From NCBI GenBank assembly GCA_040219085.1, contig JAVJTC010000029.1, positions 1 through 64,000 on the forward strand: DNA of 64,000 nt, given 5' to 3'. The DNA is from Acidimicrobiales bacterium (GTDB lineage: Bacteria > Actinomycetota > Acidimicrobiia > Acidimicrobiales > JAVJTC01). Positions 45,784 to 49,421 of the stretch are shown piece after piece. A program made the position numbers and the translations under genes. The stretch's first letter is position 1, and every line of letters starts with the position of its first letter. Under the pieces are notes generated by a model. That model saw only the letters and a list, made by a program, of their open reading frames with translations, was not told the origin of the DNA and did no database searches.

Positions 45784-46794
45784 ATGAGCGACGGGAACGG
45801 CCCGGGACTGGGGCTGCTGCTGACATCGGTTCATGACCGCTCGGTTCCGATCGAAGACCAGATCGCCGAGCATCACGAACTGATCGGTCTCGCCACCGAC
45901 ATCGGCTTCGGCCTGGTCTGCGCCGGCCAGCACTTCGCCGCACCGGCGCTGCGCTACATCCAACCCATCCCGTGGCTCGCTTCGCTGGCGACGATGTTTC
46001 CGACGCTGCGGGTGGCCACCGGGATCCTGCTGCTGCCGCTGCACCATCCACTCGCCGTCGCCGAGGAGGTCGCCACCCTCGACGGCATCAGTGGGGGGCG
46101 GGCGATCCTCGGTGTGGGCATCGGCTACGCACCGAAGGAGTTCGACGCCTTCGGTATCGACCGGAGCCGCCGCACGGACCGTTTCGAGGAGTCCATATCG
46201 GTCATCCGTGCCCTGTGGTCAGGCCAGCCCGTCACGCACCATGGGGAGTTCTTCCAACTCGATGAGGTCGAGACGTCAGTCCTCCCCGTCCAGGACTCCC
46301 TGCCGATCTGGATCGGCGCCCAGGCGGAGGCCTCGGTGCGGCGCGCCGGGCGACTCGCCGACGCGTGGTACGTGCCCCCTTTCCCGACGCACCGGGAGCT
46401 CTTCGACCTCTACGAGATGTACCTGGAGGAACGCGCCGCCCGCGGATTGTCAGGGCGATCCCCGATCCCCGTCCGGCGTGAGCTGTACCTCGCGGATTCG
46501 ATGGCCGAGGCCCGTGAACTCGTCGCCGTCGGCGCGGCGTCGCGCTACGGGACCTATTCGTCGTGGGGGCTCGACCTCGATGATGGTCTCGGGGGCGACT
46601 CCTGGCTCGACACGCGTTTCGTGCTCGGCGACGGCCCTGCGGTCGTGGACCAGCTCGGTGAGATCGCGTCACGGGTGCCGATGTCGGACTTCGTCCTCAA
46701 GGTCCAGTGGCCCGGCCAGTCCCATGCGGACGCGATGGCGCTGCTCGAGCGCTTCGGCGCCGAGGTCGCCGGACCGCTCGGCTGGGGCCGCTGA
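45784..46794 (+). CDS. LLM class flavin- or F420-dependent oxidoreductase
   Basis: A 336-residue luciferase-like monooxygenase. GFGLVCAGQHF, RVATGILLLPLHHPL, GISGGRAILGVGIGY and DRFEESISVIRALWSG are class motifs. The HHPL context resembles bacterial luciferase alpha-type and limonene-type monooxygenases. ATG 45784 has GGAGGG 7 bases upstream; an ATG at 45748 lies inside the promoter dyad and is less likely. Divergent from the AtuA operon, it may act on the same substrate. Confidence 0.87.
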   Translation: MSDGNGPGLGLLLTSVHDRSVPIEDQIAEHHELIGLATDIGFGLVCAGQHFAAPALRYIQPIPWLASLATMFPTLRVATGILLLPLHHPLAVAEEVATLDGISGGRAILGVGIGYAPKEFDAFGIDRSRRTDRFEESISVIRALWSGQPVTHHGEFFQLDEVETSVLPVQDSLPIWIGAQAEASVRRAGRLADAWYVPPFPTHRELFDLYEMYLEERAARGLSGRSPIPVRRELYLADSMAEARELVAVGAASRYGTYSSWGLDLDDGLGGDSWLDTRFVLGDGPAVVDQLGEIASRVPMSDFVLKVQWPGQSHADAMALLERFGAEVAGPLGWGR

Positions 46795-46880
46795 CCACGC
46801 CGGGCCCACTCGCCCCGCGCGGACGGCGCCGATCCGTCCTTGGACCGGTGAGATAGCTCGAGCGGCTAGGCACATGCCTC

Positions 46881-46900
46881 GCGCCAGTGTCATAGCGAAA
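46881..46900 (-). repeat. Inverted partial copy of the TTTCGCTATGAC repeat
   Basis: Read on the minus strand it is TTTCGCTATGACACTGGCGC, matching the first 20 bases of the two plus-strand copies with one or two differences. Confidence 0.7.
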
Positions 46901-46975
46901 ATCCCCTTCCGTGCTTCGTCGCAGCAGGGGCCCCCGGTGAGGGCGTCCGGATGCGAACCACCCGTCCGCCGCGAC

Positions 46976-47032
46976 TTTCGCTATGACGTTGGCGCGGCAC
47001 AGGCCTGCGAACCCGACGCGAAGCGCCAGCGC
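46976..47032 (+). repeat. Direct repeat copy A (57 bases)
   Basis: Starts TTTCGCTATGAC and ends AAGCGCCAGCGC. An internal TGGCGC ... GCGCCA inverted repeat could form a hairpin with a loop of about 28 bases. Confidence 0.85.
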
Positions 47033-47036
47033 ACTG

Positions 47037-47093
47037 TTTCGCTATGACATTGGCGCGGCCCAAGCCTGCGAACCCGACGCGAAGCGCCAGCGC
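47037..47093 (+). repeat. Direct repeat copy B (57 bases)
   Basis: Matches copy A at 54 of 57 positions with a period of 61 bases. It ends 6 bases before the stop codon of the molybdenum hydroxylase gene. Confidence 0.85.
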
Positions 47094-47099
47094 CGAGAC

Positions 47100-49421
47100 T
47101 CAGGCGCCACCGGCGCTGTCGATCGCCGCCAGAACCTCCGAGGGGCCCATCGGGAGGCGGTCGATGTGGGCGCCGAGGGGGGCGATCGCGTCGTTGACGG
47201 CGTTGGCGACGCAGGCGATCGCACCGATCGTCCCGCCCTCACCGACGCCCTTGAAGCCGCCCTCTGACGCCGACGGGGACTCGATGTGGCCGATCTCGAT
47301 CTCGGGCATCTCGGCTGCACCCGGCAGGACGTAGTCGAGGAAGGTGGACGCGAGCGGGTTCCCGTCCGGGTCGTAGGCCATGTTCTCGTACAGCGCGGTG
47401 CCGATCCCCTGGACCACACCACCGACGATCTGACCCTCGACCACGGTCGGGTTGATCATCGGGCCGCAGTCCTCGCTGACCACGTAGCGGTCGAAGGTGA
47501 CCATCCCCGTCGCCGCGTCCACCTCGACCGTGCACATGTGACACGAGTTCGACAGCGTGAAGAGGCTGGGTGGCCGGTAGCGGTGGACGGCCTCCAGGCC
47601 GGGCTCGACGCCGGGTGGCAGACGGTCCGGAGCCAGGTAGGCGGCGGCGGCGATCTCGGCGAAACCGACCGACCGTGACGGCGTGCCGGCCACGAACGCC
47701 TCACTGCCGACGATCTCGATGTCGTCGGGCGACGCTTCGAGCAGGTGGGCAGCGATCTCCGCCACCTTCTCGCGAAGACGCTTGGATGCGCCGATGGCCG
47801 CTCCGCCGAAGATCACTGCGGTGCGACTCCCCGCTGTGCCCGACCCGTGCGGCGTGGCCGTGGTGTCGTGCTGGGAGTAGGTGACGTCGTCGATGTCGCA
47901 CCCGAGGTACTCGGCGACCAACTGGCGCATCGTCGTGGCGGTGTTCTGACCGTGGTCCCCGGATCCCATCATGATCCGGACCTTGCCGGCGGCGTCGATG
48001 CGGATGTTGGCCTGCTCTGTGGCCAGCGCACCGAAGGCGATACCCGACGGCTCGATGTACGCGCTGATACCCAGCCCCAGGTGGCGCCCTTCCGAGAGGG
48101 CCGCAGCCTGTCGGACACGGAAGCCGTCGTAGTCCATCATCTCGGCCGCCTGGTCGAGCACCTCGGTGAGCGACACCCGGTCGATCGGCACACCACCGGG
48201 CATCGAGAACGGGAACTCGGCTGCGGTGACCGTGTTGCGACGCCGGAACTCGAGAGGGTCCATACCGATCGCCCGCGCGACGCGGTCGACCATCTGCTCG
48301 CGGGCGGTGGTCTCCATCAGCCACGGCCCGCGGTAGGCCGCCCGACCGACGGTGTTCGTATAGGCCGACGTCGACGAGAAGCCGAGATGGCCGATCCGAT
48401 AGGGGCCGGTGATGAAGTTGGACATCGAACCCGACGCGCTCGCGTGACTGTTGATGGCGTAGGCCCCGACGTCCTCGACATGCCGGGCCTTCATCGCCAC
48501 CATCGCGCCGTCATCGTCGACGGCGACCTCGAGGTCCACGATCTCGTTGCGGGCCTGGTTCGCCGCGATCAGGTTCTCGCGCCGGTCCTCGATCCACTTC
48601 ACCGGACGGCCGAGAAGCTTGGCCGCAACGGCGACGCACGTCTCGTCGCGCGAGACGAACACCTTCTGGCCGAACCCTCCACCGACCTGGTCGGTGAGAA
48701 CCCGGACCCGGTGATGGTCTATGCCGAGCACCCGGGCGAAGTGGGCGTGGTACTCGTGGGGATTCTGAGACGACACGTGGGCCGTGAACTCGCCCGTGCC
48801 CGGCTCCCACGATGCGACGAGGCCGCGCGGTTCCATCGGCACGTTCGTTCCGCGGGACTGCGCGAAGCGACCCGTGACCACCTGCGCCGCGCCGGCGAAC
48901 GCGGCGTCAACGTCCGGGCCGCCGGTGTCGGGCATCGCCTGGGCGACATTCGTTCCCTTCTCGGGGTGGACCAGGTTCTCGGTGTCGGTCAGGGCCGCAA
49001 CCGGATCGACGACTGCGGGCAGGGCCGCGACCTCGACGACGACCATCTCGGCGGCGTCCTCGGCGACGGCGCGACTCTCGGCGACCACGACCGCCACCGG
49101 TTCGCCGACGAAACGCACGTCGCCTTCGGCCAGCGCCCGCATCGGCGGCATGGGCGCGTTCGGCCCCATCAGCGTGGAGTGGATCGGCCCACAGACCGTG
49201 TTCAGGTCTGCGGCCAGGTACACCGCGAACACCCCGGGGACCGCCTGCGCGTCCTCGACGTCGATCGCCGTGATGGTCCCGCGCGCCACGTCGCTGCGGA
49301 CGAATGCGGCGTGGGCCATCCCCGCGACGGTCACGTCGTCGACGTAGCGGCCATGACCCGTCACGAGCGGGCGGTGTTCGCGTCGGGCAACCGACTGCCC
49401 GACGTAGCGTCCGGCGGTCAT
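47100..49421 (-). CDS. Molybdenum hydroxylase large (molybdopterin-binding) subunit
   Basis: A 773-residue xanthine dehydrogenase/CoxL-type subunit. VGQSVARREHRPLVTGHGRYVDD opens it; GGGFGQK, AYRGPW, SGDHGQNTATT, TPHGSGTAGSRT and the catalytic Glu in KGVGEGGTIGA follow. The active-site loop reads AYRGPW rather than AYRCSFR, so it is not a form I CO dehydrogenase; the substrate, an aromatic, heterocyclic or acyl compound, is unknown. ATG overlaps the small-subunit stop (ATGA). It is the last gene of the long operon. Confidence 0.92.
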   Translation of the reverse strand: MTAGRYVGQSVARREHRPLVTGHGRYVDDVTVAGMAHAAFVRSDVARGTITAIDVEDAQAVPGVFAVYLAADLNTVCGPIHSTLMGPNAPMPPMRALAEGDVRFVGEPVAVVVAESRAVAEDAAEMVVVEVAALPAVVDPVAALTDTENLVHPEKGTNVAQAMPDTGGPDVDAAFAGAAQVVTGRFAQSRGTNVPMEPRGLVASWEPGTGEFTAHVSSQNPHEYHAHFARVLGIDHHRVRVLTDQVGGGFGQKVFVSRDETCVAVAAKLLGRPVKWIEDRRENLIAANQARNEIVDLEVAVDDDGAMVAMKARHVEDVGAYAINSHASASGSMSNFITGPYRIGHLGFSSTSAYTNTVGRAAYRGPWLMETTAREQMVDRVARAIGMDPLEFRRRNTVTAAEFPFSMPGGVPIDRVSLTEVLDQAAEMMDYDGFRVRQAAALSEGRHLGLGISAYIEPSGIAFGALATEQANIRIDAAGKVRIMMGSGDHGQNTATTMRQLVAEYLGCDIDDVTYSQHDTTATPHGSGTAGSRTAVIFGGAAIGASKRLREKVAEIAAHLLEASPDDIEIVGSEAFVAGTPSRSVGFAEIAAAAYLAPDRLPPGVEPGLEAVHRYRPPSLFTLSNSCHMCTVEVDAATGMVTFDRYVVSEDCGPMINPTVVEGQIVGGVVQGIGTALYENMAYDPDGNPLASTFLDYVLPGAAEMPEIEIGHIESPSASEGGFKGVGEGGTIGAIACVANAVNDAIAPLGAHIDRLPMGPSEVLAAIDSAGGA

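Follow-up and report, generated by a model that had tools for sequence, protein, structure and literature searches.

REP and REPIN repeats are usually explained by palindromic units and, for many of them, by RAYT enzymes. As far as the accessible part of the source goes, repeats of this type have been described mainly from Proteobacteria; REPs lie mainly in convergent and unidirectional gaps and form dimers, heterodimers included, with spacers of mostly 20–100 bp (PMC3733652). The CGTC-tagged REPs treated in that part consist of a CGTC or TGTC tag, an 8–9 bp stem beginning with AT, a loop of 4–5 nt and a CCA-like tail (PMC3733652). For REPINs, tandem clusters are known and singlets are seen as remnants of doublets, according to the accessible part of the respective study (PMC3116915).

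The locus described here lies in a window, i.e. the whole analysed stretch of DNA, of 64,000 nucleotides from an Acidimicrobiales bacterium (the host). An initial annotation had noted a 57-base repeat in it and suggested a REP/MITE-like element or a terminator array. In our estimate the chances are about even that the region represents a single member of a REPIN-like family of dispersed doublets, private to the lineage and built on a mostly non-palindromic unit. We file it as REPIN-like and not as REPIN, since the unit is not a regular palindrome and no RAYT gene was found.

Results

The window locus

The two direct 57-bp copies reported by the initial annotation are real (Table 1). They are identical at 54 of 57 positions (95%), differ at unit positions 13, 24 and 27 and are spaced 61 bp from start to start. 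The inverted 20-base copy was borne out as well, its reverse complement agreeing with the first 20 bases of the two direct copies at 18/20 and 19/20 positions, and so was the convergent intergenic gap between a luciferase-like gene and a molybdopterin hydroxylase gene. The complementary TGGCGC/GCGCCA motifs, taken for the termini of each copy, are actually interior (unit positions 15–20 and 48–53). The core pattern described below occurs three times in the 64 kb, as against 0.04 occurrences expected from shuffles, and the sequence model R1 scores these three sites with 18–20 bits, the next best match in the window reaching 9.4. The molybdopterin hydroxylase gene also contains a short imperfect tandem repeat (48986–49043, period 30, 1.9 copies).

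Table 1. Core copies, direct units and flanking genes at the window locus
Feature	Position	Strand	Remarks
Core copy 1, inverted, left arm of doublet	46881..46900	-	TTTCGCTATGACACTGGCGC; model R1 20.5 bits
Core copy 2, inner right arm	46976..46995	+	TTTCGCTATGACGTTGGCGC; model R1 18.3 bits
Core copy 3, outer right arm	47037..47056	+	TTTCGCTATGACATTGGCGC; model R1 19.8–19.9 bits
First 57-bp direct unit	46976..47032	+	core plus locus-specific tail
Second 57-bp direct unit	47037..47093	+	gap of 6 bases to the stop codon of gene 47100–49421 (minus strand)
Three cores in the order (-)(+)(+)	46881..47056	.	TTCGC ends inward; long hairpin foldable on either strand
Left neighbour, luciferase-like monooxygenase	45784..46794	+	PF00296; 86 bp between its end and the element
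Right neighbour, aldehyde oxidase/xanthine dehydrogenase-type molybdopterin subunit	47100..49421	-	PF20256, PF02738, PF01315

A dispersed 20-base core in the host genome

The 57-mer was rejected as the dispersed unit: the whole 251-bp region matches only the window itself in the genome (E≤0.001), and the 57-mer with its GCGAAGCGCCAGCGC end does not recur there. Only its first 20 bases, WTTCGCTAYGACRYTGKCGC, do so, other copies ending in CTCC or CTCG. This core pattern, with up to 3 mismatches, gave 20 matches in the host genome and none for the reversed control; of the 17 found beyond the window locus, 13 fall in intergenic DNA and four in genes (C7, C17, C31, C33). A second arm type, with the CTCC/CTCG end, was detected via partner arms. 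Model R1 yielded 43 matches in the host genome, five inside called genes and 38 outside them at 17 loci; it was built from 33 of the 38 intergenic sites, whose scores are therefore high by construction. The intergenic count is 36/43 if a weak 33-codon gene call at C28 is accepted, which overlaps two sites only at a score threshold of 10 instead of 15. Genes were called by a simple custom script, and intergenic DNA makes up about 7.6% of the 128 kb sampled, versus 38/43 of the R1 matches. Those inside called genes (C17, C31, C33, C9:150049, C19) probably arose by chance, and weak pattern matches without R1 support (e.g. C3, C2, C6, C7:114624, C9:216145) were left out of the counts. All 39 sites examined (the 38 plus C33) share TCGC, a C at position 10 and a G at position 14; positions 6, 7, 11, 12 and 13 vary by transitions only. 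By these counts the REP-like half of the original suggestion stands, as the core is conserved, dispersed and intergenic like that of REPs and REPINs; the MITE half is left without support, given the lack of a shared target-site duplication and, in the stretches read, of a transposase enclosed by cores.

Orientation and anatomy of the loci

As in REPs and REPINs, the cores stand in inverted pairs at 10 of the 17 loci. At all ten, where R1 places sites on both strands, every minus copy stands to the left of the plus copies, the cores face outwards and the TTCGC side points inward. The inner 11-mers of the doublets are separated by 33–108 bp (44–119 bp from start to start) of mostly unconserved DNA. 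The order of copies is -++ in the window, ---++++ at C14, -+ at C20a, -++ at C20b, -+ at C21b, -+++ at C22 and -+ at C34, C4, C40 and C41. C28 holds a direct-only array (+++), and six loci are single-copy (C21a, C21c, C21d, C26, C29d, C44). This orientation rule counts R1 model sites only; it is broken by two weaker 11-mer look-alikes with 2 mismatches, L089:1401, a plus copy on the left side of the C4 pair, and L091:1883, a minus copy some 320 bp to the right of the C21b pair.

A degenerate inverted partner was present on the inner side at two of the six single-copy loci (C29d with a score of 10.2, C26 with 4.6), where 99% of control stretches, which may include real elements, score at most 3.8. 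A convincing inner partner was found neither at the other four nor at the C28 array, and C21a has a weak partner (3.1) on its outer side. Tandem arms number 3+4 at C14, 1+3 at C22 and 1+2 in the window. Their units are locus-specific and 37 to 61 bp long, the core alone being common to the loci.

Genomic placement

Five of the 17 loci lie 57–125 bp 3' of RNA genes, namely tRNA-Arg(TCT), tRNA-Arg(CCT), tRNA-Val(TAC), tRNA-Ser(GGA) and tmRNA, and the remaining 12 have no tRNA within about 1.5 kb. The chance probability of this placement is P ~2.9e-5 when both duplicated Arg loci are counted. Its inputs are sample estimates: 46 tRNA/tmRNA genes, 3' gaps averaging 140 bp and intergenic DNA totalling about 286 kb. 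The gap length comes from 23 tRNA loci without the element, one of which, having no called gene there, was set to 1000 bp; a tRNA scan gives 47 tRNA matches, two of them weak, compared with the 46 RNA genes assumed. The independent tRNA evidence is weakened by the clearly homologous 3' flanks of the two tRNA-Arg genes (L011:1311-1640 for TCT, L036:1262-1620 for CCT), which apparently represent a duplicated tRNA locus carrying the element in both copies. The tmRNA gene has its own hairpin and T-run ahead of its element. About 110 nt behind tRNA-Thr(TGT) there is a weak core-like match of 7.5 bits (L113:1686-1702, minus strand), possibly a decayed copy or a chance match.

Six of the gaps are convergent, nine co-directional and two divergent, compared with 4, 25 and 16 of 45 sampled gaps, and at least one gene 3' end borders 15 of the 17. 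The flanking genes are mutually unrelated, including those for ilvC-type KARI, RNase HII, YebC, an Fe–S/molybdopterin oxidoreductase-type protein, NUDIX, GH3 and others. On host contig C21 four core sites occur within 5.6 kb, one doublet standing just behind a gene (L170:5977-6942, plus strand) for a GIY-YIG protein that matches the PADLOC model PD-T4-3 (1.9e-32). Neighbours of the latter encode a 774-aa protein whose only matches, to AAA/Sel1, are weak, as well as a toxin-antitoxin-like pair of the MazE/PIN type.

Conservation of core sequence and of pairing

In the 10 doublets, the partner arms are neither more alike nor better paired than re-dealt arms, and selection for arm–arm pairing was thus rejected. 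Their summed identity is 152 versus a mean of 159.8 after re-dealing. Of 10000 re-dealings, 9003 equalled or exceeded the true partners in identity, 5921 in pairing and 7092 in duplex energy. The core is therefore conserved as sequence and not as a stem, and it is retained in single and tandem copies. Between the two duplicated tRNA-Arg flanks the arms are identical at 40/43 positions versus 69/99 in loop and upstream flank (Fisher p=0.0014), which hints at a continuing constraint on the arms; this suits binding sites no less than a mobile doublet.

Eight of the 38 sites were folded as lone arms (those of the window, C14, C20a and C20b). Three form a 5-pair stem of -4.3 to -5.2 kcal/mol, both window arms among them, three fold more weakly and two not at all, so that these eight arms do not show the palindrome of 20–40 bp that makes up each REP unit. 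RNA folding of 8 of the 10 doublets, one strand each (the window was done apart and C40 left out), gave z-scores of -1.6 to -4.4, and the window region -2.1 on the plus and -2.8 on the minus strand. Such good folding is expected, because any inverted repeat folds in this way. The strand with more paired positions differs among loci.

Mobiliser, element ends and RNA families

A search of the assembly (96.4% complete) for the RAYT domain (Y1_Tnp, PF01797) had no match with E≤1; the same search was positive in 10 of 14 control genomes. A RAYT-driven REPIN in the strict sense was rejected on this ground. A target-site duplication of at least 4 bp is shared by at most two of the 10 doublets at any of 196 offset pairs, and the best 3-bp offset (5 of 10 doublets) overlaps the conserved end of the right arm. 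Ten loci have terminal inverted repeats as in MITEs, formed by the roughly 20-bp arms; the outermost bases vary between CTCC, CTCG, GGCGC and GTCGC. In the stretches read and annotated of this draft assembly (45 contigs) no transposase is enclosed by two cores. About 450 bp separate the C28 array from a gene with an IS3-type integrase core.

The other suggestion of the initial annotation, a terminator array, gained no support: a stem with T-tract is absent from 46780–47120 in the window gap, solo and direct-only copies occur, and partner arms are unmatched. A known RNA family was rejected, as Rfam covariance models had no match up to E=1 in 46700–47200. Integron attC sites, CRISPR and matS-like sites were set aside from general knowledge alone.

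Distribution beyond the host

Among the matches listed, model R1 hit genomes other than the host only singly: 4 of 396 in the order sample, 3 of 394 in the class sample and 2 of 395 in the phylum sample. The host genome under the same settings has 21 matches. These samples overlap and comprise 395–397 genomes each, with stricter filters and 20 scored candidates listed per genome; a few single matches are expected, because the E-value limit of 0.02 per genome allows them. In 39 relatives from the order the core pattern had one single match. This draw favoured genus and family, yet all 39 belong to other families, and the repeat family may therefore be as old as the family of the host or much younger. 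In contigs of other species the pattern occurred in 36 stretches, with about 30 expected by simple arithmetic, and the four of these that were inspected (L054, L057, L058, L081) hold no second copy within 300 bp, even with 2 mismatches allowed in the 11-mer. The absence of further copies, which the initial annotation had named as the refuting outcome, applies neither wholly nor not at all, as there are copies elsewhere in the host genome and relatives give isolated single matches only.

A viral or plasmid carrier was rejected: the core pattern was found there in one stretch (L088), as one exact copy with no near partner, and the CTC-type arm in no viral or plasmid stretch, with two weak short matches on plasmids. 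Among the matches listed in a literature search for two 11-mers of the core, none is about bacterial repeats as far as the texts are accessible.

Discussion

Doublet layout, intergenic 3' placement, unrelated neighbours and restriction to one lineage speak for a dispersed REP/REPIN-type doublet. The commonest form consists of two inverted 20-bp cores in intergenic DNA, mostly 3' of genes and in particular behind some tRNA/tmRNA genes. We propose that such a non-autonomous doublet would have its conserved ends recognised in trans by a protein and may have been copied to new intergenic places. Later, arms would have been multiplied in tandem, as at C14, C22 and in the window, or would have decayed to leave solos. 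Against this reading, and against movement in particular, stands that neither a RAYT gene nor a shared target-site duplication was found. The non-palindromic core, the small number of sites (38) and the four single-copy loci and the C28 array with no convincing inner partner likewise count against it.

The main rival is possible but doubtful. The cores could form binding-site arrays for a putative chromosomal DNA-binding protein (a regulator, a nucleoid or a topology protein) at the 3' side of active genes and act, e.g., as boundary, supercoil sink or transcription roadblock, with outward pairs and tandem copies raising the occupancy. This would agree with a core that is conserved as sequence between partner arms matching no better than re-dealt ones, and with the orientation rule at 10/10 two-strand loci; its best support are the arm constraint in the duplicated tRNA-Arg flanks and the tRNA/tmRNA enrichment, both Arg loci counted. 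However, the site of a chromosomal protein is expected in relatives, of which just 4/396 in the order have single matches. The neighbouring genes inspected show no visible regulon, and the element stands at only 5 of about 46 tRNA/tmRNA genes. That the core is the site of a putative protein marking the 3' boundary of transcription units (tRNA, tmRNA, ilvC and others), in a chromosome-wide, lineage-private boundary/topology system, we consider unlikely.

Remnants of MITEs or cut-and-paste transposons, in which the cores would be the terminal inverted repeats of a DDE element since lost or left unassembled, are quite improbable. Inverted ends of about 20 bp around a short, mostly unconserved interior would be in line with this origin, and so would the IS3-type gene near the C28 array. 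Multicopy insertion sequences are easily lost from draft assemblies, and this genome is a draft. The variable outer ends, the tandem arms, the lack of a shared target-site duplication and the lack of a transposase between paired cores in the stretches read and annotated argue against it.

Very improbable is a 3'-end RNA element, i.e. a bidirectional terminator or a processing/stability hairpin of tRNA, tmRNA and mRNA transcripts, since the low folding z-scores and the gene 3' ends at 15/17 gaps are countered by a window gap without T-tract terminator, a tmRNA with its own hairpin and T-run before its element, solos, a direct-only array and two divergent gaps, and arms that match their partner no better than others, with the better-paired strand varying by locus.

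Comparison with known systems

The REPIN-like doublet, which we prefer, shares with REPINs as far as described in the accessible part of the source a short conserved core, dispersed inverted pairs tens of bases apart, singlets resembling decayed doublets and occasional tandem clusters (PMC3116915). In contrast to REPINs, the core lacks regular palindromic structure, the search for a RAYT gene was negative, and single arms instead of whole doublets are multiplied in tandem. The 38 sites also compare with 1,422 16-mers distributed in the genome of that study, going by the same part (PMC3116915). CGTC-tagged REPs, as characterised in the accessible part of their source, resemble the family in that the core read outward-in holds (C/T)GTCAT, in dimers with spacers of mostly 20–100 bp, common heterodimers and mainly convergent or unidirectional gaps, and in having no dedicated transposase known (PMC3733652). 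The tag with AT is present in many sites, but the eight arms folded lack such a local stem; unlike in these REPs, the complementary half is located 33–108 bp away in the partner arm (PMC3733652).

Two further kinds of inverted repeat are similar in outline. MITEs combine inverted ends of about 20 bp with a short non-coding interior, as core doublets do; here, however, outermost bases are variable, and neither a shared target-site duplication nor a parental transposon was found. Intrinsic terminators, like core doublets, place inverted repeats in convergent gaps and at the 3' side of tRNA genes, but the window gap has no T-tract, the loop is long, and the same sequence occurs in solo and direct copies.

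The core motif and its layout match no described kind of repeat among those compared. A small, orientation-strict doublet family of this sort, private to one lineage and without a regular palindromic unit or a RAYT gene, would suggest that such a layout can come about with a different mobiliser or in a different function. The tRNA/tmRNA enrichment offers a concrete handle on it.
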